This document shows, piece by piece, positions 4,933-30,631 of a stretch of 64,000 nucleotides of DNA. Location of the stretch: NCBI GenBank assembly GCA_033182465.1, contig CP137326.1:186001-250000 (forward strand), in the 5' to 3' direction. The notes under the pieces are model-generated. The model searched no databases. It worked only from the letters and a program-made list of their open reading frames with translations, and was not told the origin of the DNA. This stretch comes from Sanghuangporus weigelae. Lineage: Eukaryota > Basidiomycota > Agaricomycetes > Hymenochaetales > Hymenochaetaceae. Position numbers and translations under genes: made by a program. Numbering within the stretch: the stretch's first letter is position 1; the number at the start of each line of letters is the position of its first letter.

Positions 4933-5142
4933 TGTCGGTCGGCGGTGTCGTATCTGAAGGTGCTACAGATGTCCGTCCTACTAAGGGTGCTGAATGTATG
5001 AAGGAACCTCCAAAAATGGGATGCCGACGCTATCAGACTCTCAAAGACCTACTACCCGGCAGGTGCCAGGAACCGTCGGAGACGTAATGGATGGGTCTAG
5101 GGATGCCGCTGGATAAAGGGAATAGGATAACAGGACCGCCGC

Positions 5143-7929: not shown

Positions 7930-9377
7930 TGTAGACTATCAGACCCTCTTAAGCAGCGGCGAAGGCGACGGCGTTCGACCACAGAGAGGCGCCGGCGGTG
8001 TCAAAGATCGGAGAGGTAAGAAGGGATCCAACTCGTGGCTAGACCTCCTGGACAGCTTGGTGCCGTGGGGGACAATTTGACTCGGAAGCACTGCTGCCGA
8101 TCGGGATGCGCGCTCAGTCGTGGGGAGAGCTCAATCGTAAGGGCTATGGTATGATCCGCGTATAAAGGGGACGCCGCCGATAATGTACGAGACAAAGCCG
8201 CCGACGAGTCAAGATGTCGGCGTCGCGGATCAGCAATAGAGCGACGGCGCTGTCGAGTCCTGCGAGCGGCGGCGATTACTAGTAGAGTGACGGTACCGCC
8301 GATTACCAGGAGAGCGACGGTGTCGCCGATTACCAGGAGAGCGGCGGTGTCGCCGATTACCAGGAGAGCGACGGTGTCGTTGATTGTCAAGAGGGCGATG
8401 GCGCTGCCGATTCCCAGGAGAGCGGCGGGGTCGCCGATTACCAGGAGAGCGACGGTGTCGCCGAGTGTCAAGAGGGCGATGGCGCTGCCGATTCCCAGGA
8501 CGGGGGATAGCTCTGCCGATCACTTGCGCAGTGGCGAGTGAGCACGTGCCCCTGTTATTCCCTTAAACGGGGGCGGCGTCTTGTGTCGGCACACGATCTT
8601 CGGCGGAGGCGATAGAGAGCAAAAGGGCTAATAGAGACGAGAGGAGTGCACTGAGATCTATTCTGAACTACTGCTTCTGAACACTACATACATGAGGTCT
8701 ATATATACTGGGGAATGCTGGGGAAGAGCGTCACAGAGGCGGCGACAGTGACGGCGCGTCACAGGCGCGCAATCGGTGCGGACCCGAAGATCGGGGCGCG
8801 CCGCGAAGCTGCCAAGACACGGGCGCGCGCTGATCGGGCTGGTGGTGATTGGCGCGGCGCATCATCATCGGGCGCGCTCGGATCGCTAAGTGGTCGCACC
8901 ACACGAATATGAAACGTCAGGGGAAGCAATAATACTAAAAGGGGAATACGCGAGTGGCCGCCGCGTCCGACAATCGGACTCGGCGCACGAAGCAGCATAG
9001 TATGAACATGAAACGTGGTACCTGGGACCTTGTAAAACCACTACCCGACGTCGGATAAGCCAATCAACAGGAGCCGACGAATATTCCATCGGCTATACGG
9101 TTCGATATCCTTCCGCCGCCGTAGCCGATACATCCGCTGCAACGTTCCAGGCGCCCGCGTATCAGAAAGTGCGGCTGGCCAAGCGTACTCGGTTTGGGAA
9201 GTCTTCGAAGGACGGGGGGGCGGCGGACGTATTGGTTGAGCCGCGAATCAAAGAGCGGCGGTTTGGAGGGTCTTAAGGAGCGGCGGAGGTGTAGCGGTCG
9301 GCGCACGATGGTATACTGTACAGAGTACTGAGGGGCCTGTACCGACGTACCGGTACAGGCAAGTGCGGCGCACTACA
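7930..9377 (-). mobile_element. Y3, uninterrupted Y element inside Y2
   Basis: This is the only Y copy in one piece, 1,448 bp. On the plus strand it runs from TGTAGACTATC to GCGCACTACA. Its flanks are GCAC (7,926-7,929) and GCGC (9,378-9,381), again a 4-bp duplication apart from one CpG transition. It lies opposite to its host Y2, which makes 7.4-10.1 kb look like a giant palindrome. The minisatellite has about eight units, so it is 135 bp (5 x 27) shorter than Y2 and 108 bp (4 x 27) longer than Y1. Confidence 0.8.
8283..8512. repeat. 27-bp minisatellite of Y3, about 8 units
   Basis: The unit is close to ACCAGGAGAGCGACGGTGTC plus GCCGATT, repeated head to tail. It alternates between a common form and a variant with TTGTCAAGAGGGCGATGGCG. 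Because 27 is a multiple of three, all frames give nine-residue repeats and spurious long ORFs. No spacers are present. Confidence 0.9.
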
Positions 9378-9734
9378 GCGCCAATCACCGCCAGCCCGAT
9401 CAGCGCGCGCCCGTGTCTTGGCAGCTTCGCGGCGCGCCCCGATCTTCGGGTCCGCACCGATTGCGCGTCTGTGACGCGCCGTCACTGTCGCCGCCTCTGT
9501 GACGCTCTTCCCCAGCATTCCCCAGTATATATAGACCTCATGTATGTAGTGTTCAGCAGCAGTAGTTCAGAATAGATCTCAGTGCACTCCTCTCGTCTCT
9601 ATTACCCCTTTTTGCTCTCTATCGCCTCCGCCGAAGATCGTGTGCCGACACAAGACGCCGCCCCGGTTTAAGGGAATAACAGGGGCACGTGCTCACTCGC
9701 CACTGCGCAAGTGATCGGCAGAGCTATCCCCCGT

Positions 9735-10076
9735 CCTGGGAATCGGCAGCGCCATTGCCCTCTTGACACTCGGCGACACCGTCGCTCTCCTGGTAATCGG
9801 CGACCCCGCCGCTCTCCTGGGAATCGGCAGCGCCATCGCCCTCTTGACAATCGACGACACCGTCGCTCTCCTGGTAATCGGCGACCCCGCCGCTCTCCTG
9901 GGAATCGGCAGCGCCATCGCCCTCTTGACAATCGACGACACCGTCGCTCTCCTGGTAATCGGCGACACCGTCGCTCTCCTGGTAATCGGCGACACCGTCG
10001 CTCTCCTGGTAATCGGCGACACCGTCGCTCTCCTGGTAATCGGCGACACCGTCGCTCTCCTGGTAATCGGCGGTAC
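9735..10076. repeat. 27-bp minisatellite of Y2, about 13 units
   Basis: This is the same 27-bp unit as in Y3, in the opposite orientation. The last five units are nearly identical, which suggests recent expansion at that end. Confidence 0.9.
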
Positions 10077-10080
10077 CGTC

Positions 10081-11619
10081 TGTTAGGACCAGTGTTTTTA
10101 GACGAGGTGGTCAGTCTAAGCGTACCGGAACAAGTCCCTGCTTATTCCTTCTGATGATAATTGATTGGAGACGGAATGAAGGTTATGGATGTACTACTTT
10201 AGAAGCGAGCGATAGGCTCAAGCTTGACCTCAGTAGTGGAACAGGGTTTCAATCAAAGGGTACAGTTTTCGATTGAGAGTACAAAATAATTTTGCTGAGG
10301 GACAATGCCCCGCTCAGCTGGCCCTTAAATAACCTATTTACCAAATAGTACCGACTACCTATTACTACCGACTACAGCCTTGCTATTGGTCTAAACAATA
10401 TGTTTTCTCTGACACCAGTACTCTACTCTGGTGCCAACACCGATACTTTCCTCTAGTGTTGAATCGCAATACTTCTACCATATTAGGAGGGTTTATTTGA
10501 GTCCTACTACCCCGATGCTTCGAGAAGCTTCTTCCGTGCTTCCTCCGATCTGCAATCGTTATCACATGTTAATCTCTCCTTATCTTTACCCCGCGATCCT
10601 TCTCCGTTCCCAGACGGGTTCCCATGATAGTTGCCAAGCTATCGCTTCTCTGGCGCTCCGTTCCCGGGCCGAGCTTCTGCCGCTTAATCCTCGATCATGG
10701 GGGAGATAGTGATATCAGGGTTAGGGATCGGCAGAGCTTGCCGATCTTCTCCCGGCGCATGAGTGTACTCCGCTACACTCCTTCTGTGCCTCGCCGCGAC
10801 TTCAATGTCCGATAGTTGTAGTCCTGGGCCCGTGGTTAGCCGTAGCCTCTGTCCAAAGTGCTCGCGGCCATTCCACTCATCGACTGTAATTACCCCTGGC
10901 TCTGACGCTCGCCAAGCCTGCATCAAGCGTTCTATCGCTTCTTCCGTAAGATGTTCAATGTCCGAAGGTGGCCGCTTGTAAACTGGCCAATCTACTTCCA
11001 CTGCCGTGTGACTGCACAAGGTCTGGTGCCGATGCTGATTGATCCAAGCTCGCACGCCGACCTTTAATGCATAGACATCCCTATCGCTAAGCCATATGGA
11101 TACCTCATGGTCGTATGCACTCATTCCGTGGTTCGGTAATGGTTGGTCTTCTGTTCGTTCCGAGGGTCCGGGCTTATGCCGAATCTTGACATCGGCTGCT
11201 TCCCTTGACACTAACCGTTCCGTGAAGTTCTTCATGAGCCATTCCGCAAGTACCCAGCTTCGTTGGTAGGCCAAGTAACAATTGGCGCACACCAAGCTCT
11301 CATGTACAAATCTTCTAGTTGCACCACGCCGATAATGTCTTCGTTGCAGGAGTTCCGTATACCTTGCGACATTTCTTTCTTCCATCGCCGCCAGACTGCG
11401 TTCCGGCGGTGGAGTATGTCCAATGTGCATATTAGTTAGTCCTAATTGCAAATCATTAGAGTCCTCCGTGTCTTCTCCAGACGATCCGTGGTTTGCTACT
11501 CTTGAGTCGCCACCACTGTTCTGCCGTAGTAGCCTTTCGAAATAGTCTTGATTTGGCATCGCAACTCGGTGTGTAAAATTTAGCCCACGCCGTATTAGAT
11601 AACCACAATTTTCGTAACA
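10081..11619 (-). mobile_element. Z, complete TG...CA element with an intact ORF, inside Y2
   Basis: This 1,539 bp element has termini TGTTAGGACC and TTCGTAACA and a 5-bp flanking duplication CCGTC (10,076-10,080 and 11,620-11,624). On the minus strand it starts TGTTACGAAA, and 60 bp later opens a 291-codon frame that fills more than half its length. It is the only Z copy in the window and looks whole as a solo-LTR-like unit. It must be among the youngest insertions because it sits in Y2, four levels down. The ends and duplication fit an LTR, but a long LTR carrying an ORF is unusual; a non-LTR origin cannot be excluded. Confidence 0.7.
10684..11559 (-). CDS. Unknown 291-aa protein encoded in element Z
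   Basis: A single uninterrupted frame begins MPNQDYFERLLRQNSGGD and ends PDITISPMIED. It has an acidic, Ser-rich N-terminus, then an Arg-rich stretch with a CxxC pair near residues 90-93 (LVCANCYLAY), then a helical C-terminal half rich in Trp and Glu. I see no DDE, RT, protease or zinc-knuckle signature. The E1 ORF also has a CxxC beside aromatic residues, but I would not claim homology by eye. Function is unknown. Confidence 0.4.
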   Translation of the reverse strand: MPNQDYFERLLRQNSGGDSRVANHGSSGEDTEDSNDLQLGLTNMHIGHTPPPERSLAAMEERNVARYTELLQRRHYRRGATRRFVHESLVCANCYLAYQRSWVLAEWLMKNFTERLVSREAADVKIRHKPGPSERTEDQPLPNHGMSAYDHEVSIWLSDRDVYALKVGVRAWINQHRHQTLCSHTAVEVDWPVYKRPPSDIEHLTEEAIERLMQAWRASEPGVITVDEWNGREHFGQRLRLTTGPGLQLSDIEVAARHRRSVAEYTHAPGEDRQALPIPNPDITISPMIED

Positions 11620-12189
11620 CCGTCGCTCTACTAGTAATCGCCGCCGCTCGCAGGATTCGACAGCGCCGTCGCCCTATTGCTTATTCGCGACGCCGATATC
11701 TTGACTCGTCGGCGGCTTTGTCTCGTACATTATCGGCGGCGTCCCCTTTATACGCAGATCATACCATAGCCCCTACGATTGAGCTCTCCCCACGACTGAG
11801 CGCGCATCCCGATTGGCAGCAGTGCTTCCGGGTCAAATTGTCCCCCACGGCACCAAGCTGTCCAGGAGGTCGAGCCACGAGTTGGATCCCTTCTTACCTC
11901 TCCGATCTTTGACACCGCCGATGCCTCTCTGTGGTCGAACGCCGTCGCCTTCGCCGCTGCTTAAGAGGGTCTGATAGTCTACACCAGAAGCACTGCTGCC
12001 AATCGGGATGCGCGCTCAGTCGTGGGGAGAGCTCAATCGTAAGGGCTATGGTATGATCCGCGTATAGAGGGGGCGCCGCCGATAATGTACGGGACAGAGC
12101 CGCCGACGAGTCAAGATGTCGGCGTCGCGAATAAGTAGTAGAGCGACGGCGCTGTCGAGTCCTGCGAGCGGCGGCGATTACTAGTAGAG

Positions 12190-12297
12190 CGACGGTGCCG
12201 CCGATTACCAGGAGAGCGACGGTGTCGCCGATTACCAGGAGAGCAACGGTGTCGCCGATTGTCACGAGGGCGATGGCGCTGCCTATTCCCAGGACGG
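12190..12297. repeat. 27-bp minisatellite of Y1, about 4 units
   Basis: This is the shortest of the three arrays, in the same orientation as the one in Y3. The differences in unit number explain all length differences among the Y copies. Confidence 0.85.
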
Positions 12298-14325
12298 GGG
12301 ATAGCTCTACCAATCACTTGCGCAGTGGCGAGTGAGCACGTGCCCCTGTTATTCCCTTAAACGGGGGCGGCGTCTTGTGTCGGCACACGGTCTTCGGCGA
12401 AGGCGAGGGAGAGCAAAAGGGGCTAACAGAGACGAGAGGAGTGCACTGAGATCTATTCTGAACTACTGCTCCTGAACACTACATACATGAGGTCTATATA
12501 TACTGGGGAATGCTGGGGAAGAGCGTCACAGAGGCGGCGACAGTGACGGCGTGTCACAGGCGCGCAATCGGTGCAGACCCGAAGATCGGGGCGCGCCGCG
12601 AAGCTGCCAAGACACGGGCGCGCGCTGATCGGGCTGGCGGGGATTGGCGCGGCGCATCATCATCGGGCGCGCTCGGATCGCTAAGTGGTCGCACCACACG
12701 AATATGAAACGTCAGGGGAGGCAATAATACTAAAAGGGGAATACGCGAGTGGCCGCCGCGTCCGACAATTGGACTCGGCGCACGAAGCAGCATGGTATGA
12801 ACATGAAACGTGGTACCTGGGACCTTGTAAAACCACTACCCGACGTCGGATAAGCCAATCAACAGGAGCCGACGAATATTCCATCGGCTATACGGTTCGA
12901 TATCCTTCCGCCGCCGTAGCCGATACATCCGCTGCAACGTTCCCGGCGCCCGCGTATCAGAAAGTGCGGCTGGCCAAGCATACTCGGTTTGGGAAGTCTT
13001 CGAAGGACGGGAGGCGGCGGACGTATTGGTTGAGCCGCGAATCAAGAAGCGGCGGTTTGGAAGGTCTTAAGGAGCGGCGGAGGTGTAGCGGTCGCCGCAC
13101 GATGGTATACTGTACGGAGTACTGAGGGGCCTGTACCGACGTACCGGTACAGGCAAGTGCGGCGCACTACAGCGGCGAAGGCAAGCAGAATGTGGAGTCA
13201 AACAAGAGGAGATGTCAAGGATAGTATATAGTCAAGGGGGAGGCTCAGTACATGAGGGGAGACTCAGAGTGAGGGATATCTCGAACTCTGGCGCTCGGTC
13301 TGGTACATGCTCTTGGAATCCTTGCTAGGCTTGGAATCCTTGTCGTCTACAAGCTAGTAGAAGCTCTATATATACTCTACTGCTGTCGCCGACACATCCT
13401 ACTGTCTGACAACATCTCCTGAGTCATCTGGGTCACCAAGGGCCGCTGCCGGAGCGCCCAGGTGAAATCTGAGAGCGGCAACGTGAGGGGGGCATCCAAT
13501 CACATGAAATATTGAGTATCTGCAATAACACGGGCGCCGGTGGAGTTGGGCTTGGCGGCGCGAGTCGGTGGCTTGGCACGCCGATGTACCACATGCCTAC
13601 CTTCCATACATGGTCTAATGGGGGCCGCCGCGTCGGGAGGAAGTCGGGAAACATCGGAACCGATGATTGGAGGCTGATATCGCGTATATGAGACAAAGGG
13701 CGCATCAGCCGATGTCCCTGAGGTGTCCGATGCATCGGCGGCACTCAATACAGAGTGTGGGCAATCCCTAGTGACTAATATGAGTGGCCGGAGCGGCAGT
13801 GCTGTGGGGGACTGCCGGACTGGTGGCAGATACATCGTAATGAGGCATGTAAGCACATATGACAATATATAGCTCCCTAGACAATGGGGGACTGCTTGGT
13901 AAGCTGTAGGAGGCGTCGGCGAGGGTACCTGAGGATGTCTGAGTGTCCGCCGCATTGATCGGCGCCAAGGGGGGCCGACTCGGAGGCATCCAGAGTCGCC
14001 GCACGGCTGTACGTATGGTAAATCATAAGATCGGCGGCACGTAGTCACTGAGGGATGTGTCCTATAGTGCCTGGTGCTGGGTAGGAGCTGTCGGCGGACC
14101 TGTCTGAGTGTCGGGGAGCCATCGGCGGATCAATTTGGGTCATAGGAGGGCGCCGCAGTACAGTACGTGTGCTGGAATCAATGGATACGTGCTCAAATGA
14201 TGTCCCGAGTGCAATAGGAGTGTGCCCTCACACTCTCAGGTGTCGGCAGTGCTGGGATATGGTATCTGCAGTAAGAGGGAGCCATAGTATGAGTGCACTG
14301 GCACAGGAGGAGCCAGTGCGCTACA

Positions 14326-14602
14326 GCGGATTCAAATTCTCCGAAATGGAAATGAGTGGGAGCAGTTTACATTCTATTTCATTGAAAGCATTGCTGACCT
14401 GCACCTCGTGAAACTAATTTACATGATCTCCTTCCATGTATGGATAGTACTTGTGCTGATGGTTCTGCTCGAGTCACTCGCCTTCGAGCCTGGACTGGAG
14501 TTGGAGTGGGAGATGTCAGGAATATCTAGGTCGGTTTTGAAGAACTCTGAGAATAGAACTCCCCAGACTCCCTTGAAGGTTTCACTCTTCAAGGGGAACT
14601 AA
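14326..14602 (+). pseudogene. Displaced C-terminal exons of P450 copy 2
   Basis: Directly after the end of X-B, and overlapping the 4-bp GCGG, comes GFKFSEMEM, the residues that follow the haem cysteine in this P450 family. A GT-AG intron follows (GTGGGAGCAG...TGGATAG). The last exon reads VLMVLLESLAFEPG and PLKVSLFKGN and then stops at 14,602. The matching upstream exon, ending FLGGGRAC, is 10 kb away at 24.8 kb on the other strand. Its phase fits: an AT left over there plus the C here makes Ile, giving GGGRACIGFKFSEMEM. An inversion between X copies moved this piece. Confidence 0.85.
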
Positions 14603-14911
14603 GAATTGCATGGGCTGGAGAAATCGGACTATACATGTAGTAATTTATGTCCCAAGGAAACACCTTCTAGAAATATAGTGTCAATCCCTACGATCTGCTC
14701 AAAAGTATATTGGTGCTAGTTCTCGGATCTGCCAGTTGCCAGTCTATTTATGGATTTTTTAGATACTTTGCAAGATCTTCAAATGATGCCTGAAAGAGCT
14801 AGTGAGAAAATTGTTCTTTGCGAGTGCATAAAACAAACTCTTTAGCGTCGTACCTATGTTCTGTGATCGACTTCGTTCTGAGTTCCCTACTCTCCATCAC
14901 CACAACTTCGT
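14603..14911. other. No gene seen
   Basis: This stretch lies between the displaced P450 tail and the PEX1 fragment. It is AT-rich with no recognisable repeat or coding sequence. It may be old 3' flank of the P450 together with the 5' flank of the PEX1 copy. Confidence 0.4.
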
Positions 14912-15374
14912 ATGCCTCGACGAGCACGGATTAAGTTTGTCTCTCTTCGATCCTCGCTCATCAATCTTCCTATATCTGTCTATGGCCCTCTCGTTGAACA
15001 CCATGTCGTAAGTATTCTTCATCCAAATGACCTTCAACCGATTTAGGTGACATGTAATTATGTATGAAATAGCTGCGCGAACAACGTAGCACCCTCAGAA
15101 CCTTGCTGTGCATTTACTGGTAGTCTCGAGTCCAAGCTCAGATCCCGTGTCGAATACGAATAGTATAGACGCAAGTGGAAATAGAAAGGAAGGGGAAAAG
15201 AAAGGAGTATATGTAGGATGGACTAGGATGGTGAGTTCATCGTCCTTGGCATGGTTCAACTCTGATCCTCTTGCTAATGAACCTTCTGCTCCTGGGCTAG
15301 GAACGATTAGCAAGCAAAACGTGAAGGTCATCCACGCGTCTGAAGATTCTCTGCAGAATGGTTCTGCAAAATAG
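14912..15374 (+). pseudogene. PEX1: N-terminal fragment of peroxin PEX1
   Basis: Exon 1 (14,912-15,007) begins MPRR and continues RARIKFVSLRSSLINLPISV, then YGPLVEHHV. A GTAAGT...GTAG intron follows, and exon 2 (from 15,090) reads HPQNLAVHLLVVSSP and later VYVGWTRMVSSSSLAWFNS before stopping. These are the N-terminal signatures of fungal Pex1, the AAA ATPase of peroxisomal import-receptor recycling, which is over 1,000 residues long. Only about 125 residues are present and both AAA domains are missing. The retained intron shows a DNA-level copy and not a retrocopy. It is one of three host-gene fragments in the inverted segment. Confidence 0.7.
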
Positions 15375-16509
15375 AATCCAGGAGAGACATCAGTCAAGGC
15401 TCCAGAGACAAATACTTTTAGTTGGTCGAGAGAAGTGCCCATTGGACACATTGTATATGGAGTCAAGGATTAGAATAATTGGTCAGAGTCACTTTATATA
15501 TCGTGTCTCTGAAGTGTCCAGAGGTTAGGAGAGCGGGGAGACGCCTTTTAGCTCCTTACTGGGTTATTTAGAAGTTTAGAAAGTGAGATGGTGAATAGTT
15601 GTTGAGGGAAAAGTCAGAGAAGTCATTATTTTCACTGTTGGTGTGGCACAGTTACTACAGTGCACAGTGCAGAGCATCTAAAGCCATCAACTCAAGTTTT
15701 GTCAACTTCCGACAGTAACTCTCCACCACAATACCTCAGATTGGCCTTGAAAGTATACCAGAGAGTAGATAGATAGGCATAGGAGGCATATGATTTGCAT
15801 TTTTATAGAATTTTATCTTGAGGTCGAAAATTTGCTTCAGCAAAAATTGAAACAAATATTTAAATAAATAAAAACTATTTTCATTTTATTAGTAATACCA
15901 CCAAAAGCAACCAAATCGGGGCAGTTACAAATACAATCACGTCGATCATTGCCTTGTCAGGAACATTGGCCATCTTCAATCTAGCATTTCCTGGTGGCAT
16001 TCCAGGAGCCTGCTGAATACCAGAATGTGGAGAGAGGAAGAGAGGATATGCCGCAGCCACCTCTATTTTTTTTTTTCATTTTTTTTCATTTTTTTCCCCC
16101 AAAATATTAAAACATTTTGATAGCCCATCAAAGACCTTAGAAAAACAATCACGTGCACCTAAGGCAAAACCCTATTTCCAAACCTGAAAAAATTGATCCA
16201 GAACTGGAATCCAGCCAATTAGAGGTGAGCTTTCCAGTTCTGGATCAATTTTTTCAGGTTCGAAAATAGGGTTTTGCCCTAGGTGCGTGCGAGTAACTTT
16301 GTTACTTGTATTACAGTCATTTACCTGTCCTTTAAACAGTACTGCTCCTTTGAACACTCAAATTTCCTCCCTCAATTCTTCTTCCCTTGTAACAACAAAA
16401 ATCACACAGATACAGAGAATATGCATCAATGATAATACCAAATTTTAGAAAATTTGAGTGAGGCATTCAGTGTAGAGAAATTGTGCACTGGCTAATTTGA
16501 TTGTATTTG
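15375..16509. other. AT-rich repeat debris with a hairpin and a MITE end
   Basis: No gene is supported. The stretch holds homopolymer T tracts near 16,060-16,100, the long hairpin at 16,151-16,290, and at about 16,309-16,365 a sequence (CAGTCATTTACCTGTCCTTT) matching the terminus of the MITE at 20,053-20,723. The rest looks like decayed single-copy DNA. Confidence 0.5.
16151..16290. repeat. Long near-perfect hairpin, arms about 58 bp
   Basis: The left arm (16,151-16,209) contains GGCAAAACCCTATTT and AATTGATCCAGAACTGGA. The right arm (16,232-16,290) contains their reverse complements, with a few mismatches and a loop of about 22 nt. It may be a fold-back element or a tiny palindromic MITE. 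No second copy is in the window, and I see no convincing flanking duplication. Confidence 0.75.
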
Positions 16510-16610
16510 TGAAAGGATCCGCTCAAAATCTTGCATCAGGATCAACGCAATCAGCAGATCTACACAATCGGCCTTCCAAACGCAACCGGTAACCAAGCCA
16601 GCTAACATGG
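16510..16610 (-). mobile_element. E1c, fragment of an E1 element
   Basis: It starts TGAAAGGATCCGCTC (the E1 end read in reverse) and matches about 90 bp of E1 up to AAGCCAGCTA, where X-D begins. The remainder of this E1 copy is not present beyond X-D. Confidence 0.65.
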
Positions 16611-18109
16611 TGTAGTGGGTGGTGTATGTCTCTGAAGGCGCTACCAATGTCTATCCTACTAAGGGTGCTGAATGTATAAAGAAACCTCCAAAAACGAGAT
16701 GCCGACGCTATCAGACTCTAAATCCCCACTACTCAGCAGATGCCGGGGACCATCAGAGACATGATGAAGAGGTGTATGGATGCCGAAGTTCGAAAGGAAT
16801 AGGCTAATAGGGCCGCCGCTCGAAAGGGGGGATCACAGGAGGCTGCCAACATGGTGGAAACTCGGACACAGGGTTGGCAGGAGTGTATGAGATGAATATA
16901 AGAGATAAAATGGAGTGAGTGGGTGGAGAAGGCGCCGCTGGGTCGTCTGGTACTATGCCTGTGTTGCTGGATAGCCGCCAATGTCAAATAGGGGGGCGCC
17001 AGAACAAGGGGAAGGCTGCACGAATCTGCCGAAGTAGCGTAAACGCGATAGGTGAAAGGAAAGGACTGTATAAGATGAGTATATAGACTAAACTGGGGTG
17101 AAAGGCTGGAAAGGGTGCCGCAGATGAGTCTGAAAGGAGGCCTGTGTCGCTGAAGGGCCGCCGATGTCAAATAGAGGGGCGCCGACAAGGTGTAAGAGGG
17201 GTGAGGGAAGCTCAGGGTTAAATCCCAAGCTTCTACACACTCGCTGAATGTCAGAGCGGCCGAGGCGTATCAGAGGTGGTGAAGGTAAGTGGAATGATGA
17301 GTCAAGCAAGAGGAGATGTCAAAGATAGTATATAGTCAAGGGGGAGCTCAGTACAAGAGGGGAGACTCAGAGTGAGGGATATCTCGAACTCCGGCGCTCG
17401 GCCTGGTATATGCTCTCTTCCTCTAAGATGATCTCTTGTCTACCAACCTGATATAAGCTCTATATATACTCTGCTGCTGTTGCCAGCACATCCTACTGTC
17501 TGACAACATCTCCTGAGTCATCTGGGTCACCAAGGGCCGCTGCCGGAGCGCCCAGGTGAAATCCACAAGCGGCAACGTGAGGGAGGCATCCAATGGCATA
17601 GAATATCGAGTATCTGCAATAATACGGGCGCCAGCAGAGTTTGGCTTGGCAGCACGAGTCGGCAGCTTGGCACGCCAATGTACCACATGCCTACCTTCCA
17701 TACATGGTCTAATGGGGGCCACCGCATCAGGGGGAAGTTGGGAAGCGTGGGAGCCAATGATCAGAGGCTAATATCGCATATATGAGACAAGAGGCGCATC
17801 AGTCAATGTCCCTGAGGTGTCCGATACATCAGCGGCACTCAATACAGAGTGTGGGTGATCTATAGTGACTAATATGAGTGGCCGGAGTGGCGGTGCTGCG
17901 GGGGACTGCTGGATCAGCGCCAGATACGTCGTAATGAGGCATGTAAGCACATATGACTATATATAGCTCCCTAGGTAATGGGGGACTGCTTGGTAAGCTG
18001 TAGGAGGCATCGGCGAAGGTATCTGAGGATGTCTGAATGTCTGCTGCATCGATTGGCGCCAGGGGGGGGCCGACTCGGAGGCATCTAGAGTCGCTGCAAG
18101 GCTGTATGT
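16611..18109 (-). mobile_element. X-D, old diverged X element, truncated
   Basis: It aligns over its length with X-A, X-B and X-C but with many more differences. A large share of these are CpG to TpG or CpA, as expected of an older, methylated copy. It starts TGTAGTGGGTGG beside ATGG. About 320 bp short of the far end it meets E1b, where family sequence GCTGTACGTATGG would be expected. It is a relic with many small changes and one truncation or insertion. Confidence 0.65.
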
Positions 18110-19621
18110 TGAAAGGATCCACTCAAAATCTTGCATCAGGATCGACGCGATCAGCAGATACACACGATCAGCTTTCCAAACACGACCAGTAACCAAGCCA
18201 GCTATCACAGGCCCAAGCAATCGAGCGGCCTAGGCAACAGTAACCCGTTACCACCCGAGCGCTAGAAGCACCAAAGCGGATACATAATCCCGCTAACAGC
18301 TAACACTGCCGACCGCCTATTACCGCGGACTACCACTCTAACGCCGCCGACCAAGTAACCCAAGCGACCTCGATCAAAAGAAGCGATCAAACTTCTTAGA
18401 AGTCCAGAAGCACAACTACTAAAGCCTAAACACTAAAAGGCTAAAGGCTAATAAGGTTTATGGAGACCTCACTGGCATTTCAGCACTGTCAAGTCTGTGC
18501 ACGAGTTTACATGGTCCTCTATGAAGTATACTACATAGTATGCACGGCAACAGTTGGTACGCGTGACTGTCACATCGAAACCGAGCGACACCTTCAAGAT
18601 ACAATGCATTCCAATCCACCAAGCCCAGTAGTACCCAAGAAACGAGAGGAACTCACGATTACAACTCGAACCCCTCGAACTGCGAACCCGATAACTTGGA
18701 GAATGATTGGATGGTATAGACCAGAGTTGCACACACCATGTCCAGCATCTATGATACAGGCAAACCTTTATTTACCAAGAAATGCGAACCTGGAGACCAA
18801 GCAATTACAACTCCTTATACAACGAAGGATATGGCATTACATTCGAGACATACAATATGAAGGCAAAGCATGGCTAGTCACCAGAACCCAGCAGAACCCG
18901 CCAGCAGAGCTTATGCAGTTCATGATATGCCTTGGACCATACTCTACACCAACCCGACACCTTAACACGGACGTGCGAGTTATGCTTACCCTCGCTGGAC
19001 CTCGAGATGAATTCCGAAGAATCACATACTGAGCAGCCTACATCGCTCCAAGGGCAAAGATGCCACTTAATGACGGCAATGACATCGTTATGGAGTACTG
19101 ACAGTGGAGCATTCCACATCGGAACACCACCTCTATTATCTCAGTCAGCAACTCCACAGAATTCTGTCATAGTGGAGACGACCTTACAAAGATTGGAGCA
19201 AGGTGGAGCGAAGCGCAGCAGGATGACAAAGGAACAGATGTAATGGTGGAGAAAAGAGGAGTAAAGTGGAGACAGGATGAGTAAGAAATAGGACAGAAAA
19301 TGGAATATCTGGGAGCATAAATAGTTGTAGGATTAGGCCCTCATTTCCCCATCTTTCGATCCTCTTAACACACTGGTGTAAAGCTTGCCCTACAGTGAGC
19401 TATTACTGTGTGCTTTGTACTATCACGCCTCTTGGAAATCCCAATCTGCTTTACTATCACCTCGTATCTGAAAGCATCCATAACTCGGACCGCAACTAGG
19501 AAGGCTAGTAAGGGACCGCGTGGTACAGCCAGACGTGGGTAGATAAGATCACCTCTGCACAACACACCGCTGCTTAGGCAAAAGGATCGAACCGGTGTAA
19601 CCCCGGGCCTACTCCTTAACA
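18110..19621 (-). mobile_element. E1b, end-to-end copy of E1
   Basis: This 1,512 bp copy runs from TGAAAGGATCC to CTCCTTAACA and is near-identical to E1a in the opposite orientation. It still has an intact X target region (GTGT where E1a has GCGT), so it shows E1 without that insertion. The outer flanks are X-D on one side and a transposase-like remnant on the other. They do not repeat each other, so at least one end has been rearranged. Its 190-codon ORF is at 18,460-19,032. Confidence 0.6.
18460..19032 (+). CDS. Unknown 190-aa ORF inside E1b (twin of 4,080-4,652)
   Basis: It has the same length and almost the same sequence as the E1a ORF. The differences are scattered, several of them conservative (for example PNPIVPKK against PSPVVPKK). 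It is followed by the overlapping 103-codon frame at 18,932-19,243. No domain is recognised. Confidence 0.3.
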   Translation: METSLAFQHCQVCARVYMVLYEVYYIVCTATVGTRDCHIETERHLQDTMHSNPPSPVVPKKREELTITTRTPRTANPITWRMIGWYRPELHTPCPASMIQANLYLPRNANLETKQLQLLIQRRIWHYIRDIQYEGKAWLVTRTQQNPPAELMQFMICLGPYSTPTRHLNTDVRVMLTLAGPRDEFRRITY

Positions 19622-19730
19622 CAATGCCTTTTACATCTAGTCCACAGTTCGTGGACATGTGCACAATAACACGACGCAGGTCATCTGAGATAGGAACCCC
19701 ATGCGTCATGCTGGCAGTCACTGTGTTACG
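19622..19730 (-). pseudogene. Possible N-terminal piece of a Tc1-type transposase
   Basis: Read leftwards toward E1b, the strand encodes HGVPISDDLRRVIVHMSTN followed by GLDVKGIV. This resembles the start of the helix-turn-helix region of fungal DDE (Tc1/mariner-like) transposases (IS-DL-RWVIV-M). E1b interrupts it directly after that point. It is short, so the assignment is tentative. Confidence 0.4.
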
Positions 19731-20052
19731 AAAGAGATAATGCATATGTGTGTAGATGTGTGCTAGGTCACAAATCGTGTGACTACACACAAAGTTTAGA
19801 TAATCTAAGACTCAGTATGTGATAGGCAACAAGTGTCGGACTACTTGAACCTAGCACACTTGATTTAGTTGACCTAGGTAGTACAAAAATGTAAATTGGT
19901 ATAGCTGCATTACAATCATTTCTGTACATGTATGTTAGATGGACTACGAAGTCAGTGTAAATGCACCTTAGCTCTGAGTTTGAATTTCTGTGATCCACCC
20001 AAATATTTCGATATTGCTATATCAAGATATAAATTGCTTAATATAGAAATTA
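19731..20052. other. No feature seen
   Basis: AT-rich DNA between the transposase-like remnant and the MITE. It holds no ORF of note and no repeat that I can match elsewhere in the window. Confidence 0.4.
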
Positions 20053-20723
20053 CAGGCATTTACTGGTCCTTTAAACAGTACCCTTCCTTTGAACACCCTA
20101 CATTTACTCACTCAAACCTCCAATTTGCAACTTGAAATTTTTATCATAGGTGGACAGAATACACATGAGTCATGCTGCGAAATTTCAGCAAATTACTATG
20201 ACCCGTTAAATACAGAAAAATTATTTACTGCTGAATTTCAGTGAAACTCAATGAGAAACAATGAATCAGATGCATTTTGCTATTCATTCATGCTTTGAGC
20301 ATGACTCAAAAGCAGATATACTAGTACTCCACTACTGTAAGTACATGCAGCCTAGTTTGTGTGGCGAAAGAGCTGTCCAATGAATTAATATAAGACATAC
20401 AATAAAGGTGACTTGAAAAGCGTGACAGGCAGACTTATCAACATTATTATGTAATCGGGCAGTTCTCATCTCGCGAATATACATGCACTAGCATGACACT
20501 TATGTCACAAGGTGTTCAAAGGAGTTAATTTTGTGACATTTACCCTACTTTTTTCACACACACAATTTGATTTTTTTCTGCACATTTTACAGCTCAAAAA
20601 AATTTCAGCATATAGCCTCCATAGCAGACTACTCAGATATATAATTAGGTTTTTTTAAAAATGTTTGTGGTGTTGTGTACGAGTGGATCTGTATTGAGTG
20701 TTCAAAGGACCGGTAAATGCCTG
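20053..20723. mobile_element. Tc1/mariner-like MITE with TA duplication
   Basis: The termini are inverted: CAGGCATTTACTGGTCCTTT at the left and AAAGGACCGGTAAATGCCTG at the right. The left end also carries a second GAACACYC block that the right end shares. TA flanks both ends (20,051-20,052 and 20,724-20,725). The interior, 671 bp in all, has no transposase. A related terminus occurs near 16,309. It abuts the truncated end of the MLP1/TPR fragment. Confidence 0.75.
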
Positions 20724-20739
20724 TATATTGATCTAGATT

Positions 20740-22190
20740 TCGTATGCGACAACCATCTTGGCTAGCTACTAGGCCTTACCTATCTGCCAATGCACTGATC
20801 CGTTCACGGTCTGATACAGAAGGTTGTGTCGTGTTTGATCCATCTCGTCGAGAAAACATCATCCAAGTCCCGGGCTACATCGCATACACTTACGGAGCGA
20901 TCAACCTTGGTTCGCAGTTCCTGAACTTCGATATCTTTTGGCAATGAAACTTGTCGGACTGTGTCGCGCTCGCAGGACAGCTGAGTTCGAAGATCCTGAC
21001 TAAAGCATCAAAAATTGGATGTTACTGCGTTAAAACAAACGTGATATAGAGGAACACTTACGCTTGGCCCTCCAGATTATGGATTTGGGACTCAAATCTT
21101 CGCCCATCGCTGCCGTTCGCCCTGTCAATGTCATTGTGCATTTTCTGCACGTTGGCAATCAAGTCCGTCATACGAGACCGCTCCTGAGACGAAATTTTGT
21201 TCTCATCAATTGCTTGAGTCTGCACATTCTACATCTCGAGTTAATATGAATCACAAGACGAGTAAGTTGACGGCTACGCACCTCCCAGATCTTCTTTTCT
21301 GCACGAAGATTGGAACATTCATTCCGCAATCGCTCGATCTGGGTATTAGCAGAGGCTAATTCCTCGGCAGCATGGTTGCATGCGATATCCAGACGTGTGT
21401 ATTGATCGTGCAGTGGTTGGTTCCGTTTCTGCAGACTTTGAGCTTCTCGCTCGTGCATGATGTACTGTTCCTGAGCCATGCGATGCCGCTCTGGCCCAAA
21501 TGGTGAGCTCGACCCGTTGAGGACAAACAGAATAAATTCACCATTGAGGAATTCAATCCTCGCGATAGCCTTTGCGAGTACCGCACCCGGTTGACTGGAT
21601 TCAAGCTGGTATTGAAGAACTTCTTCGCGAAGCTTGATAGTATCAACCCCCATTTCTTTTCGGTACGCCTCGAAGTTAGTTCAGACTTCCTCAAGCTCCT
21701 TTGGCTCGCCAACAGATCCATTCAGGAGACAATGGACTCGCTTGTTGAGTAGAAGTAGCAGCTGGAAGTGCCCCGCCCCGTTCATAACGAGAATCATAGT
21801 CTTCAGCGTGTCCCTCTCTTTGATGTAAGCCTGAATCGACCCCTGACGGGGCTTGGATACTCGCAGGTTGTGCGTGCAGTGTCATGATTGCCTCGTGCGC
21901 CTCACGAATAGCCTCGCTCTGCTCGTTCTCCATTCGCGCCTTGTACTCCTCAGCAAGAACTCCACCAAGCGTACGATCAAGATTTTCCATGTCGCACTGT
22001 TTCTTAGCCAGTTCACCTTGCATCCCGACATATTCAGCGTAAACCCCGGTGAACGTCTTGCTGCTTTTCTGCATGCGGTTGATCATTGAAATATTTGGGC
22101 TAAAGTTGAACAAGTTATCCGCAGATACGTTCGATGAAATTTGCGCTGCCGAGAGAACCGGAAACTCACCCAAATTGATGCGGTCCATTA
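20740..22190 (-). pseudogene. Fragment of nuclear-basket nucleoporin MLP1/TPR
   Basis: Blocks in order are VSADNLFNFSPNISM, KTFTGVYAEYVGMQGELAKK, DRTLGGVLAE, YTRLDIACNHAAEEL, LRAEKKIWEV, MTDLIANVQKMHNDIDR and QDLRTQLSCERDTVRQVSL. These follow the coiled-coil N-terminal third of fungal Mlp1/TPR, a protein of about 1,900 residues at the nuclear pore basket. A clean GTAAGT...TTTAG intron survives at about 21,000-21,061. Both ends are missing, and the frame is lost in several places between the blocks. It is a DNA-level fragment and cannot make the protein. Confidence 0.75.
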
Positions 22191-22194
22191 AGCC

Positions 22195-22500
22195 GCATTT
22201 ACTGCCGGGTCGACACCATCGAGATCGTCCAAAATCTTCCATGCCGTATCCATATCCGTGCGCGTTCAATTCAAATCACCGTAGAGGAGTTTTGCATGTG
22301 CGAAGGATCAGAGGAGGACTACTTGAGCTTTGGGTGATTCTTCGGTGCTGATTCGAGAAAGGAGGGCAGTGAGGTAGTTGAGGATGGTGACACGGTCCGA
22401 GTACGTTGGCATTCTAGATAAAACCGTAAGAATCATCCAGTCTGGACATGATTCCTTACCAGGGACGAGTGGTGGGCACGATGTCGGATGCATGACGACC
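22195..22500 (-). pseudogene. Fragment of proteasome lid subunit RPN9
   Basis: The blocks TILNYLTALLSRISTEESPK, SFAHAKLLYGDL and WKILDDLDGVDPAVNAA match the middle of Rpn9, the PCI-domain subunit of the 26S lid. The frame is interrupted: a stop stands before SFAHA where Arg is expected (CGA to TGA would explain it), and there is another before TRTDMD. It lies head-on to, and on the same strand as, the MLP1/TPR piece, with almost no sequence between them. A full Rpn9 has about 390 residues; roughly 90 are recognisable here. Confidence 0.65.
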
Positions 22501-22853
22501 GTGCAGCAGAAGAGAAGAGAGGTGATGATGGTGGCAGGCAGGAAGAGAGAAGTGACGCGTCGAGATTTCCGTAAAGTCCTCAGGACTCACCTGATCACGT
22601 AGATCTGTGTGTGTTGTAGAGTTGCCTATATCAGCTAGCAATATTTCGTCATTTCTGTAGGCCGTCTAGGCATATCTACAACTTGATGTGCATTAAGACA
22701 CCAATACATAAATTTCTAGGTCATAAACAGACAACTACAAATGAAACTTTCATGGACTAAAACAACATTTTTTGTAGGTTTGTATTAGCTCATATATGAT
22801 AGACTACACGGATGTGTGTTAGGAACCCCTGTAACGCGGTGAGTGGCAGTGGG
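22501..22853. other. No gene seen
   Basis: This is the upstream flank of the RPN9 fragment, perhaps with a further decayed exon up to about 22,640, then AT-rich DNA up to the E1a tail. Confidence 0.4.
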
Positions 22854-22927
22854 TGAAAGGATCCGCTCAAAATCTCGCATCAGGATCGACGCAATCAACA
22901 GATCTACACGATCAGCTTTCCAAACGC
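22854..22927 (-). mobile_element. Displaced last 74 bp of E1a
   Basis: It runs from TGAAAGGATCCGCTC to TTTCCAAACGC. In E1b the same sequence runs on into the CCAGTAACCAAGCC block. Here it stops at the X border, and the continuation of that block is at 4,932 and leftwards, next to X-B. The ACGC at 22,924-22,927 is the reverse complement of GCGT at 4,929-4,932. Confidence 0.75.
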
Positions 22928-24765
22928 TGTAGCGCACTGGCTCCTCCTGTGCCAGTACACTCATACTATGGCTCCCTCTTACTGCAGATACCATATCCCA
23001 GCACTGCCGACACCTGAGAGTGTGAGGGCACACTCCTATTGCACTCGGGACATCATTTGAGCACGTATCCATTGATTCCAGCACACGTACTGTACTGCGG
23101 CGCCCTCCTATGACCCAAATCGATCCGCCGATGGCTCCCCGACACTCAGACAGGTCCGCCGACAGCTCCTACCCAGCACCAGGCACTATAGGACACATCC
23201 CTCAGTGACTACGTGCCGCCGATCTTATGATTTACCATACGTACAGCCGTGCGGCGACTCTGGATGCCTCCGAGTCGGCCCCCCTTGGCGCCGATCAATG
23301 CGGCGGACACTCAGACATCCTCAGGTACCCTCGCCGACGCCTCCTACAGCTTACCAAGCAGTCCCCCATTGTCTAGGGAGCTATATATTGTCATATGTGC
23401 TTACATGCCTCATTACGATGTATCTGCCACCAGTCCGGCAGTCCCCCACAGCACTGCCGCTCCGGCCACTCATATTAGTCACTAGGGATTGCCCACACTC
23501 TGTATTGAGTGCCGCCGATGCATCGGACACCTCAGGGACATCGGCTGATGCGCCCTTTGTCTCATATACGCGATATCAGCCTCCAATCATCGGTTCCGAT
23601 GTTTCCCGACTTCCCCCCGACGCGGCGGCCCCCATTAGACCATGTATGGAAGGTAGGCATGTGGTACATCGGCGTGCCAAGCCACCGACTTGCGCCGCCA
23701 AGCCCAACTCCACCGGTGCCCGTGTTATTGCAGATACTCAATATTTCATGTGATTGGATGCCCCCCTCACGTTGCCGCTCTCAGATTTCACCTGGGCGCT
23801 CCGGCAGCGGCCCTTGGCGACCTAGATGACTCAGGAGATGTTGTCAGACAGTAGGATGTGTCGGCGACAGCAGTAGAGTATATATAGAGCTTATACTAGC
23901 TTGTAGACGACAAGGATTCCAAGCCTAGCAAGGATTCCAAGCCTAGCAAGGATTCTAAGAGCATGTACCAGACTGAGCGCCAGAGTTCGAGATATCCCTC
24001 ACTCTGAGTCTCCCCTCATGTACTGAGCCTCCCCCTTGACTATATACTATCCTTGACATCTCCTCTTGTTTGACTCCACATTCTACTTGCCTTCGCCGCC
24101 TCCGGTACGCCTCTGCCGCTCTGACGTTCAGTGAGTGAGTAGGGCTTGGGATTTAACCCTGAGCCTCCTCCCCACACTTTATACCTGTCCGGCGCCCCTC
24201 TATTTGACATTGGCGACCCTTCGGTGACCCAGGCTTCTTATCAGACTCCCCTTCGGCGTCCTTTCCAGCCTTTCACTCCAGTTTATCCCATCTATTGATC
24301 TTATACGGTCTTTTCCTTTCATCTATCGCGTTTACGCTACTTCGGCAGATTTGTGCAGCCTCCCCCTCAATCCGGCACCCCTCTATTCGACGTCGGCGGC
24401 CACCAGGCGACCCAGCCTTCCTATCATACACCCCTGCAGCGCCCTTTCCAGCCTTTCACTCCAGCTTAGTCCATATATTCATCTTATACGGTCCTTTCTC
24501 TCCATCTATTGTGTTTACGCTACGTCGGCAGCCCCCTGTGATCCCCCCCTCTCAAGCGGCGGTCCTGTTATCCTATTCCCTTTATCCAGCGGCATCCCTA
24601 GACCCATCCATTACGTCTCCGACGGTTCCTGGCACCTGCCGGGTAGTAGGTCTTTGAGAGTCTGATAGCGTCAGCATCCCATTTTTGGAGGTCCCTTCAT
24701 ACATTCAGCACCCTTAGTAGGATGGACATCTGTAGCACCTTCAGATACGACACCGCCGACCGACA
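22928..24765 (+). mobile_element. X-A, uninterrupted solo-LTR-like X element
   Basis: This is the longest whole X copy, 1,838 bp, from TGTAGCGCACTGG to GACCGACA. The right flank CCGC (24,766-24,769) matches, as its reverse complement, GCGG at 14,326-14,329 beside the displaced P450 tail. It carries the 183-bp tandem unit twice (about 24,260 and 24,443) and three copies of the 18-bp repeat. The left flank belongs to E1a, so its present ends come from two original insertions joined by recombination. Confidence 0.8.
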
Positions 24766-26877
24766 CCGCTGCGACAAGAGATAATCGTCCAGTTGAACGT
24801 GACACTAAATGAGAGTATACAATGACTGACATACATGCTCGACCACCTCCAAGGAAGGTCATCCTGTGAACAGATGAATGAACTGAGCCCATACAAATCA
24901 GTTGAAGGAAAATATTTACTTACATCGACGAATAGACTCTAGATAAATGTGCCTTGCTCACGCTCTCCGGAAGAGGATTCAGCCATCGCTCAGGCTTCCA
25001 CTCCTCCGCATCCTTGCCCCAGATCTTCTTGCTCCTGTTTGCACCGTAGATCGAGATGTGTATGTTTGTGTTACGCTTGATTGGTATCTCCGTGATTTTG
25101 GTCTTTCCGTCTGCACTGAGGATAGGCCAAGCGAGTGGCATAACCACATCCTTTCTGGCCCTATGCACGGCGATTATTCGAGCACAGGTATATATAAGTA
25201 CGAGGAAGAGAGTAAACTGGAGAAAGATTGCTTATGTGCATGCTACCATAACAGCTGGAGGAAATACACGCAGAGTCTCACGACAGAAAGCATCGAGGTA
25301 TGGCAGACCTATAAGAGTATCATAGTCGAAGTCTGCTTCTCCACGTTCATTTCTAGCCGCAACTATCTCATCTCAGATGCGCTTCTGTATGTCTGGGTGC
25401 AGAGCGAGTAGGTGTAGAAGCCTGCTTAGAGCATGGGAAGTAGTGTCTTGGCCTGCTATAGTGAATGCACTATTTTTAAAGGAAACAAGGGCTTTTCAAG
25501 TAATCCAAAAACTTTGATGATTACAGAAACTTACTTTAACTGCCCGATGATTTCTTCCTCTGGTAGCCGGTCCTTTTCATCTGCAGACATGTTTGCCTTA
25601 ACTAGAGACTCATTTGAGCAGAAGTTTCAGTTGCCAGAGATATTATGATACTCACACAGTACACTCAAAATATCTTTTCCTTGGCCAATCCTCTTAAGTA
25701 CTGCTTCATCCCCCTTCTCCAACGCTCTTTTGCTTTCATCGTAAATGATATTAAAGTAATCATTAAGCCTGTCGATGGTCTCCATGAACTCCTTGATGGG
25801 CTTGGACGGAACAAACTCTAGCATTTTGCGGCGAAATGCTGGAGGACCAAGTTTTACCAGCCATGGTAAAAACCTCCTTGGGAATTCAGTCTTGAAAAGC
25901 AGGAATCTGTACAAAGAATAAGATTTAGATTGAATTTAGGTAGAGAAACCCAGTATACTCGCATTGTTTTCTTGACGTGATCGCCATATTCACTTGATTT
26001 GTCATCACGAAGGGCATTGAATGTGTAACCAAACCCAGCCTGACCAATGTACTCAAGAGCTGCTTTGGAAAACCACAACATAAGGTCGATCTCCTTTGGT
26101 CCTTCCCTTACTTGATTTGAGAGGATATCGCGGAGCTGCAATGCTGTATTAAAATATTGAAAAGTACCGTCTTCGATGTACCTACGTCATATGCGATTGG
26201 ATTGAACACAAGAATGAGGTCTTGCATGTGTTTCATCGAGAACACAGGGTTTAACGTCTTACACTGTCGCCGGTGATGGTCTCCTGATTAAGGATGAACA
26301 TTAGAATACCAGTTCCTTTAGACGCAAGAATCGTTTTTAAACGGACAATGGACGCACCCAGGGTAGATTCAAGGCTCACACCATTGATCAAGCTGCTTGT
26401 GCTTCATAAGAAATGTATGGGAATGCCAAACAGTTACAACTTGAAAACCACCTACATCAGGAATGCGCTAGTCTCTTCATAGATGTACTGATCCTTGATA
26501 AGAATATGATGCAGAGCCAGTGGGTCAAAAATATATAGGTCGTCTTTCTAAGGATCCAAGGTTAGTAATGAAAACTAAGGCTTGGGGCGTTAATTCACCC
26601 TGAGCGACATAGGCAACTTGACTACGCTGCCGTACTTGTCAATGATATCATCATGGAACTTCCATCCATAAGCATCAAAGAGCTGAAAGAAATATCCTGT
26701 GAAACCTGTGGTCAGTAACTGAATACCAGAACATCGGGAGGTGTTTCAAGGACCTTTCAACCATGACGTTCTCGGAGGGCTGGGAACGTTCTTGAGAGAC
26801 TGACTGCACAAGAACCATCACTGTATCAAGTAGATGCCAGTGACGATAGCAAACGCTTGTGCAAGTAATAGCGACAT
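24766..26877 (-). pseudogene. P450 copy 2, 5' and middle exons, cut by X and inversion
   Basis: It starts at 26,875-26,877 with the same anchor as copy 1 and the same exon order. Late exons read IPIKRNTNIHISIYGANRSK, EEWKPERWLNPLPE and FLGGGRAC, the last being the haem-binding loop, followed by an intron whose acceptor overlaps the X insertion. The rest of the gene is at 14,326-14,602. It also has an early stop: codon CGA after YLIQ in copy 1 is TGA here, next to two more CpG transitions. It is therefore a pseudogene twice over. Divergence from copy 1 is clear but the exon structure is kept. Confidence 0.85.
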
Positions 26878-29170: not shown

Positions 29171-30631
29171 TTACCTGATAAAACCCAAGACATTGAGATG
29201 CATACCTAAAGGCTGCCCAAGCACCCCAATAACGAAATACACCCAAACGGTTCCCGGCCAACCACCTACCCTCCTTCCGATAACAATCATCCTCAAAACT
29301 CTCTCCAGAATAACAAGCACGCCCTGGAACATGAAGAACAGCACCACGCGATAATCCATGCCATGGTCCATCGAAGTGGAAGACAACTCGTGGTACGCCT
29401 CAGACGCAACGAACGTGCCCAGTACCATCCCGAGCTTTCCTAACGTCCCGTTTCCGAGGAGCTTTTGTGCTGGATGGCCGCCGAAGACGAGGAACGTCTG
29501 TCTGAGAAGCTGGTGCCATCGCTTGGCCCAGAACTCATGCAGGCTCGTCGCTGCCCACGGCCGATCCATAACAGGCGGCCAGCTCGTCGGGTCGTGTCCC
29601 AAAAGACCCACACCGATCTGCGTAGTCAGATCGTAACACATCTGGAACTCCGTCAGCAGCGAAAACCCGCTCGCGAAATGGATCGCCGTGCTCAGCGCGT
29701 AACGCTTTGTCGGAGGAAGGTGGGGAAGGAAGATCGTCCCTCCTGTAGGCAAGCCCACGCCCGGTACGAGCTTGAGGCAAAATTCGAGGAAGTCGAGGAG
29801 GAGGAAGCTCCATAGGAACGATGACAGCGTCGCTAGTAGGAACGGTCTCCTTACGAGGGGCTTCCGTTCCGGCGGGATGTACACACCCTTGCCCCAATCC
29901 CATCCTACACCCCTCGCAGCACAGAACAGCTCCAATCCATCTTGCAGCCAAAGTGGTAGTAACTTGGAGCCTGGGCGATTCGTACCTGAAACAGATATAG
30001 AATGCGGAGACGCGTTTCCGTTGGAAACCGAGTGCGAAAGGTCCTTAGGATCGTAGTCTTTCTTTCTTGCTAATCGTCGGTCTACTATCCTGCCCAGGCT
30101 GCTTCTCGCCCACTTTGTAATGACCATTCGGAACGAGGGCGTAGTCGATCACTTTGCCCGTAACCATCATTCCCCCACCAGCGCTGCTCAAAAAAGAGAT
30201 AAATGTCATTTTACTATCGGCTCGTTGAAAGCCACTCGTACGCACCTTCACCCCAGTTATACACATGAAGCCCCCCCCCCCCCTTCCCGACCCATATGTA
30301 CCCATAACACGAATGCAGTGTCACAGCAATCGCACTCGGGAGGATGAGCAGCCTGATCAGCTGTGTATCAGGTCTCCGCGCCAGCCTGAGGTACGCCATG
30401 TACAGCACAGGGAGGGAGAATGCGAGCGTATTGGGAAATGTCCGCCATGTTATTCGTGTACGATCCTCGAGAGGCGAGCAGGTGAAAGAAACGTGTGGCG
30501 ACCAAGGCGATTCTCTAGAACTTCTATCTACATGTACTACTTGAAGAAGAAAGGCACGTGTCGTGGAAAAATAAAACTATTAATTTCTTTTGCAATACTC
30601 ACTTGTCGAAAAGCCCACTACCCGACTTCAT
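29171..30631 (-). CDS. Wax-synthase-like membrane-bound O-acyltransferase (MBOAT_2)
   Basis: This is a polytopic ER membrane acyltransferase of the type found in many copies in agaricomycetes, often in terpenoid clusters. The C-terminal exon (29,171 to about 30,127) holds the family blocks SLHEFWAKRWHQLLRQTF and, after FVASEAYHELSS, the putative catalytic His, plus several membrane spans. N-terminal exons read TWRTFPNTLAFSLPVLYMAY and LILPSAIAVTLHSCYGYIW. The start at 30,629-30,631 (MKSGSGLFDK) is inferred because its intron joins in phase with ESPWSPHV. A run of 14 C (G on the coding strand) near 30,271-30,284 falls in an exon, making the frame there uncertain. The acyl acceptor is unknown. 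Confidence 0.8.

Follow-up and report, generated by a model that had tools for sequence, protein, structure and literature searches.

How does a cytochrome P450 gene come to lie in two pieces on opposite strands? The question is raised by a stretch of 64,000 bases of Sanghuangporus weigelae contig CP137326.1 (assembly GCA_033182465.1, positions 186,001 to 250,000), here called the window. It contains no N, has 48.4% GC and holds split genes of fungal style. Repeat families were defined by self-comparison of the window together with direct reading of the sequence. They are X (1.84 kb in the copy X-A, ends TGTAG...GACA), N (1.45 kb in the copy N3, ends TGTAG...CTACA), M (1.54 kb, ends TGTTA...TAACA) and E1 (about 1.5 kb, copies E1a, E1b and E1c). 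The simplest reading of the locus would be a single inversion between two X copies, X' and X-A, which carried the end of the gene away. Such an event had been proposed by an earlier reading of the bare letters, the sequence-only reading.

The displaced tail continues P450 copy 2

Copy 2 of the P450 gene lies on the minus strand, where its modelled exons (24,770-26,703) run to the haem loop. The haem exon is located at 24,831-24,863, and the first exon or exons upstream lie outside the model. On the plus strand, a tail at 14,327-14,602 carries the C-terminal exons 14,327-14,355 and 14,448-14,602. The haem exon (read 24,863-24,831; FLGGGRAC) ends in GGGRAC and a further AT, and the tail supplies C GGA TTC from 14,327. 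The joined reading, AC/IGFKFSEMEM, restores the split isoleucine codon. The second tail exon ends in PLKVSLFKGN, followed by the stop codon TAA at 14,600-14,602.

The head alone matched the Pfam profile PF00067 with 97.5 bits (positions 270-411). After joining, the match rose to 124 bits (positions 270-436). The tail alone gave no Pfam match at E 0.01. The joined piece also aligns beyond the haem loop with cytochrome P450 3A4 (PDB). The sequence-only reading had placed the continuation of copy 2 at 14.33 kb, and this was borne out, since reading frame, intron phase and Pfam profile all run across the joint. In a six-frame scan for a few P450 haem and post-haem motifs, three matches were obtained, at 14,328 (post-haem motif), at 24,856 (haem loop) and at 16,168, the last of them probably due to chance.

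The exons are modelled approximately: as placed, the join ahead of ARKDVVMPLAW is out of frame, and it was bridged by hand. Similarity of copy 2 to P450 copy 1 extends in pieces up to 27,936. The CGA (arginine) codon of copy 1 corresponds in copy 2 to an in-frame TGA at 25,373-25,375. Because of this codon, copy 2 looks like a pseudogene even apart from the insertion of X-A. Near the P450 copies, the open frame at 29,174-30,148 is MBOAT_2 acyltransferase-like (Pfam PF13813).

The missing end of E1a lies beside X-A

A second interrupted sequence is the repeat E1a. Its body (3,481-4,932, minus strand) is broken at GCGT (4,929-4,932) by the 3' end of X'. The corresponding end, 74 bp long, is found at 22,854-22,927 on the plus strand beside X-A and closes with ACGC. 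For comparison, the uninterrupted copy E1b (18,110-19,621) was used. The E1a body agrees with E1b at 1400 of 1438 aligned bases with 10 gap positions, and the 74-bp end agrees at 67/74 bases with E1b and at 68/74 with E1c. Across the rejoined joint, 44 of 48 bases match E1b, in register and without a gap. The statement that the missing end of E1a lies beside X-A therefore holds: once turned back, it completes an E1 element that keeps register with E1b.

Both long E1 copies carry a 195-codon open frame (18,445-19,032 and 4,080-4,667). Neither the E1 frame 18,445-19,029 nor the frame 3,300-3,734, which lies partly in E1a, gave a Pfam match at E 0.01. Neither E1a nor E1b was seen to have a target duplication at its ends, and E1 was for this reason left unclassed. 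Over 16,510-18,207, an E1 head fragment, a truncated X copy (X-C) and the complete E1b follow in a row.

Two opposed X copies bound the segment

X-A (22,928-24,765, plus strand) is a complete X copy that runs from TGTAGCGC to GACCGACA and interrupts P450 copy 2 where the haem-loop intron has its 3' splice site. Its 5' flank, ending in CCAAACGC, is E1 sequence. Its 3' flank, starting with CCGCTGCGACAAG, is P450 sequence in antisense. X' (4,933-14,325, minus strand) is one X copy in the pieces 4,933-5,142, 6,790-7,248 and 13,176-14,325. Its 5' end at 14,325 is followed from 14,326 by GCGGATTCAAATTC, which belongs to the P450 tail, and the bases just before its 3' end at 4,933, GGTCGCGT, belong to E1a. 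What the sequence-only reading had named X-B (13,176-14,325) is the 5' 1,150 bp of the larger X'.

When the three X' pieces were joined, 1805 of 1819 aligned bases were identical to X-A (99.2%), and the 19 gap positions consisted of one 18-bp tandem unit and one base. The 14 substitutions comprise 13 transitions and 1 transversion, and exact runs of 493 and 395 bp are common to both copies. X1 (5,143-6,785, plus strand) is nested in X' with the duplication CCGC at 5,139-5,142 and 6,786-6,789, and is identical to X-A at 1617 of 1643 bases. Among the window copies X' and X-A are the closest pair, with 25-26 substitutions from either to X1. X-C (about 16,609-18,109) is an older, truncated fourth copy, which agrees with X-A at 1246 of 1503 bases. 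It lacks approximately its first 311 bases, at the point where E1b starts. A search of viral contigs with the 5' end of X gave no matches.

Turning the segment back restores both duplications

In the sequence as it stands, the 4-bp flanks are GCGT and GCGG for X' and ACGC and CCGC for X-A. When 14,326-22,927 is turned back, they change to GCGT/GCGT and CCGC/CCGC, respectively. The duplication CCGC on the P450 side of X-A (24,766-24,769, plus strand) thereby regains its displaced partner GCGG (14,326-14,329, plus strand), and GCGT at 4,929-4,932 regains ACGC (22,924-22,927, plus strand). These letters had been noted before, and both pairs were confirmed base by base. Three X copies have both of their ends inside the window; the flanks of X1 matched as found (CCGC/CCGC), those of X' and X-A only after the turn. 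One inversion of 14,326-22,927 had been said to explain both mismatched pairs together. Both duplications, E1a and the P450 order are indeed restored together, but this interval, the DNA between the two X 5' ends, is only the minimum segment, because the crossover would lie somewhere inside X.

In all six readable 4-bp duplications (X1, N1, N2, N3 and, turned back, X' and X-A), at least one of the copies has CG as its two middle bases. The duplications lie at 5,139, 7,245, 7,401, 9,378, 24,766 and 4,929 and include CCGC, ACGC, GCGG, CCGG and GCGC. In N2 (CCGG/CCAG) and N3 (GCAC/GCGC) the central CG is present in one of the two copies only. The product of the host CpG background frequencies for the six central CGs is 6e-8. 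Therefore, X and N insertion seems to prefer targets with a central CG.

Proposed order of events

X' would have inserted in an E1 repeat, duplicating ACGC. X-A would have inserted in the P450 gene in the opposite orientation, about 8.6 kb from X', duplicating CCGC at the 3' splice site. Both insertions should be older than the inversion, as neither duplication is whole except in the turned-back order. The X-A insertion alone would break P450 copy 2. The earlier claim that the inversion had cut the gene was thus given up: X-A had already cut it at the splice site, and the inversion moved the severed tail. Recombination within the 1.8 kb of X would then have inverted the DNA between the copies. 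Each X copy would be left with one flank of its own and one from the other site, E1a would be broken into parts at 4.93 kb and 22.93 kb, and the head and tail of the P450 would end up on opposite strands, 10.4 kb apart.

The inversion was also considered as a switch that turns the P450 on, and this was rejected, with X-A remaining in the gene and the TGA in frame. There is a slim chance of a standing flip-flop over these 8.6 kb, in which the X copies, about 99% alike, keep recombining and both orientations coexist between nuclei or strains. The flanking sequences would then be alternately joined and parted. The P450 would stay off in either orientation, because X-A stays in the gene and copy 2 has its nonsense codon.

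X as a putative solo long terminal repeat

The sequence-only reading had called X solo-LTR-like, after the long terminal repeat (LTR) of retrotransposons. X has TGTAG...GACA ends and 4-bp duplications, seen in X1 as found and in X' and X-A once turned back, and it carries TATATATA at position 952 of 1,838. The label is thus a reasonable one. No full X-flanked gag-pol element was noticed in the window. X is likely, if unproved, to be the solo LTR of an LTR retrotransposon.

Terminal inverted repeats were scored on the two 150-bp ends of each element against 300 shuffles. Equal or better scores were reached by 216 shuffles for X-A, 234 for X1 and 258 for M. For N3, 52 of the 300 did so, which is not clearly above the shuffles. 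X and N resemble Ginger1 in their TGTNR termini and in 4-bp duplications with a central CG (CCGG and CCGT in the Ginger1 description), but Ginger1 is described with terminal inverted repeats of 40-270 bp (PMC2836005), and X and N3 have none above shuffled controls. On this ground X and N were not assigned to Ginger1.

Weighing the alternatives

A real inversion of 8.6 kb, produced by homologous (ectopic) recombination between X' and X-A, is probably what the locus records. Homologous copies stand at the segment ends in opposite orientation (X' minus, X-A plus), and their target duplications are exchanged, with one base differing in each. The locus had been described as a readable record of ectopic recombination. 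This description is kept as far as the inverted, nearly identical copies and the exchanged duplications go, but recombination inside X found no support. At the 14 sites that distinguish X' from X-A, X1 matches X-A at 7 and X' at 7, interleaved, a comparison of low power as the parents are unknown. Neither there nor when X-C was also compared was a chimeric block pattern seen among the X copies. Mapping of the crossover with X', X-A, X1 and X-C was tried and abandoned, as no block structure appeared and no point could be placed.

That no chimeric pattern was seen at these interleaved sites weighs against the inversion, and so do several further observations. At X' and at X-A alike the duplication mismatch amounts to one base, and one-base imperfections also occur in the duplications of N2 and N3, two elements untouched by the inversion. 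Random pairs of NCGN 4-mers from the window are identical 6.5% of the time. Given these figures the duplications are weak as independent evidence, and the weight was placed on the continuity of E1 and P450, which is base-exact where X ends, and on the pairing of a single post-haem motif with a single clear haem loop in the motif scan. The 74-bp E1a end diverges from E1b more (7/74) than the body does (38/1438). By comparison with E1c, 5 of these 7 differences are changes in E1b and 2 are changes in E1a. Finally, the donor of the haem intron, GTCAGT, was picked to fit the motif; with the nearer donor GTATGT, both the reading frame and the haem cysteine would be lost.

Segments flipped between inverted repeats are a common assembly error. 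The true order could have X-A inside P450 and X' inside E1a, with the assembler having misjoined near-identical inverted repeats. Once corrected, such a flip would look identical to the turned-back order. The arms, 1.15 to 1.8 kb long at about 99% identity and with a 493-bp exact run, are enough to confuse short reads. That run is the longest between X-A and the contiguous X' arm, and fixing the orientation needs a read across the 1.15 kb of X-B or the 1.84 kb of X-A. Pulling the other way, the window is free of gaps and resolves nested copies about 88-98% alike along with 27-bp tandem repeats, which weakly favours long reads or finished clones. Resequencing of maize centromere 10 is reported to have corrected five misassembled elements whose duplications did not match (PMC4806543). 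An assembly flip is thus a possibility to be taken seriously, though an unlikely one, and we infer that the event took place in the organism, by homologous recombination, and that X is an LTR.

Aberrant, hybrid-element transposition would likewise yield an inversion with exchanged duplications if X were a cut-and-paste DNA transposon, and in the account of Galileo its outcome is called strikingly similar to that of ectopic recombination (PMC2775673). That X' and X-A are mutually closest in the window, without a chimeric pattern, is compatible with it. The model expects copies that are identical at birth, whereas these differ by their substitutions, an 18-bp unit and one base, for which later mutation could account. 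It is also inapplicable to an LTR element, and X has no terminal inverted repeat above its shuffled controls. We regard it as very improbable. Scarcely credible, too, is an origin by separate events, in which the 74-bp E1 piece and the P450 tail came from other copies and were joined to the X ends by independent deletions or recombinations. E1 and P450 are indeed multicopy (E1a, E1b and E1c; two P450 copies), and P450 copy 1 runs out of the window before its 3' end. Yet two independent events would have to give exactly complementary halves, each at an X 5' end and with the right duplication, where one inversion suffices.

Nested elements and other features of the window

X' was itself a target of insertion. 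Besides X1, it holds a stack of N and M elements at 7,249-13,171, flanked by the duplication GCGG at 7,245-7,248 and 13,172-13,175. Within the stack, N1 holds N2 (7,405-11,983, CCGG/CCAG), and N2 holds N3 (7,930-9,377, GCAC/GCGC) and M (10,081-11,619, with a 5-bp duplication CCGTC). Nesting is thus five levels deep, with X' in E1a, X1 and N1 in X', N2 in N1, and N3 and M in N2. The similar copies of this stack are resolved without gaps. The N elements contain the 27-bp tandem repeats (8,243-8,527 and 9,653-10,111), the number of which differs by copy. M includes an open frame of 329 codons (10,684-11,673, minus strand), the first codons of which extend past the M end at 11,619; the frame (10,684-11,670) had no Pfam match at E 0.01.

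Elsewhere, the open frame 21,694-22,275 had no Pfam match at E 0.01, and the frame 21,171-21,680 had two matches, each below Pfam's cut-off. The intervals 45,980-47,375 and 47,949-49,339 are tandem duplicates, each about 1.4 kb long, with 67% identity to one another. ARAGORN found no tRNA genes in the window.

Comparison with known systems

The closest parallel is inversion 2z3 of Drosophila buzzatii, described as bounded by oppositely oriented copies of Galileo with exchanged duplications (PMC2775673). In both cases two opposed copies of one element bound the inverted segment. Secondary elements are nested in both breakpoint copies of 2z3 but in X' only here. For 2z3, non-inverted chromosomes were sequenced and chimeric copies shown, whereas here the inversion is read from one arrangement and chimerism was not seen. 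Galileo is described as a DNA transposon with terminal inverted repeats, and X is LTR-like. The exchange of duplications after ectopic recombination was thus already known from Galileo, and the present locus would be a fresh case of a documented process.

LTR elements of maize centromere 10 offer a second likeness, their mismatched duplications having been read as inter-element recombination (PMC4806543). According to that report, some mismatches proved to be assembly errors upon resequencing; ours are read from one assembly. Among at least 63 transposon-related variants reported for the mushroom Marasmius oreades, one is an inversion, and the region concerned has the same element twice (PMC9674265). 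This kind of event is therefore known in such fungi. Our literature searches turned up no publication title on this locus, and absence in print is not claimed.

An identical signature arises when inverted repeats lead an assembler to flip the DNA between them, and this limits any reading of this type. If the inversion is real, the locus is unusually legible: the two recombined copies, the duplications they exchanged, and a repeat and a gene that were interrupted separately as host sequences all lie in one window. Since all parts lie together, no relative is needed to read the order of events, insertions and then inversion. Searching for exchanged duplications could help both to find inversions and to audit assemblies.

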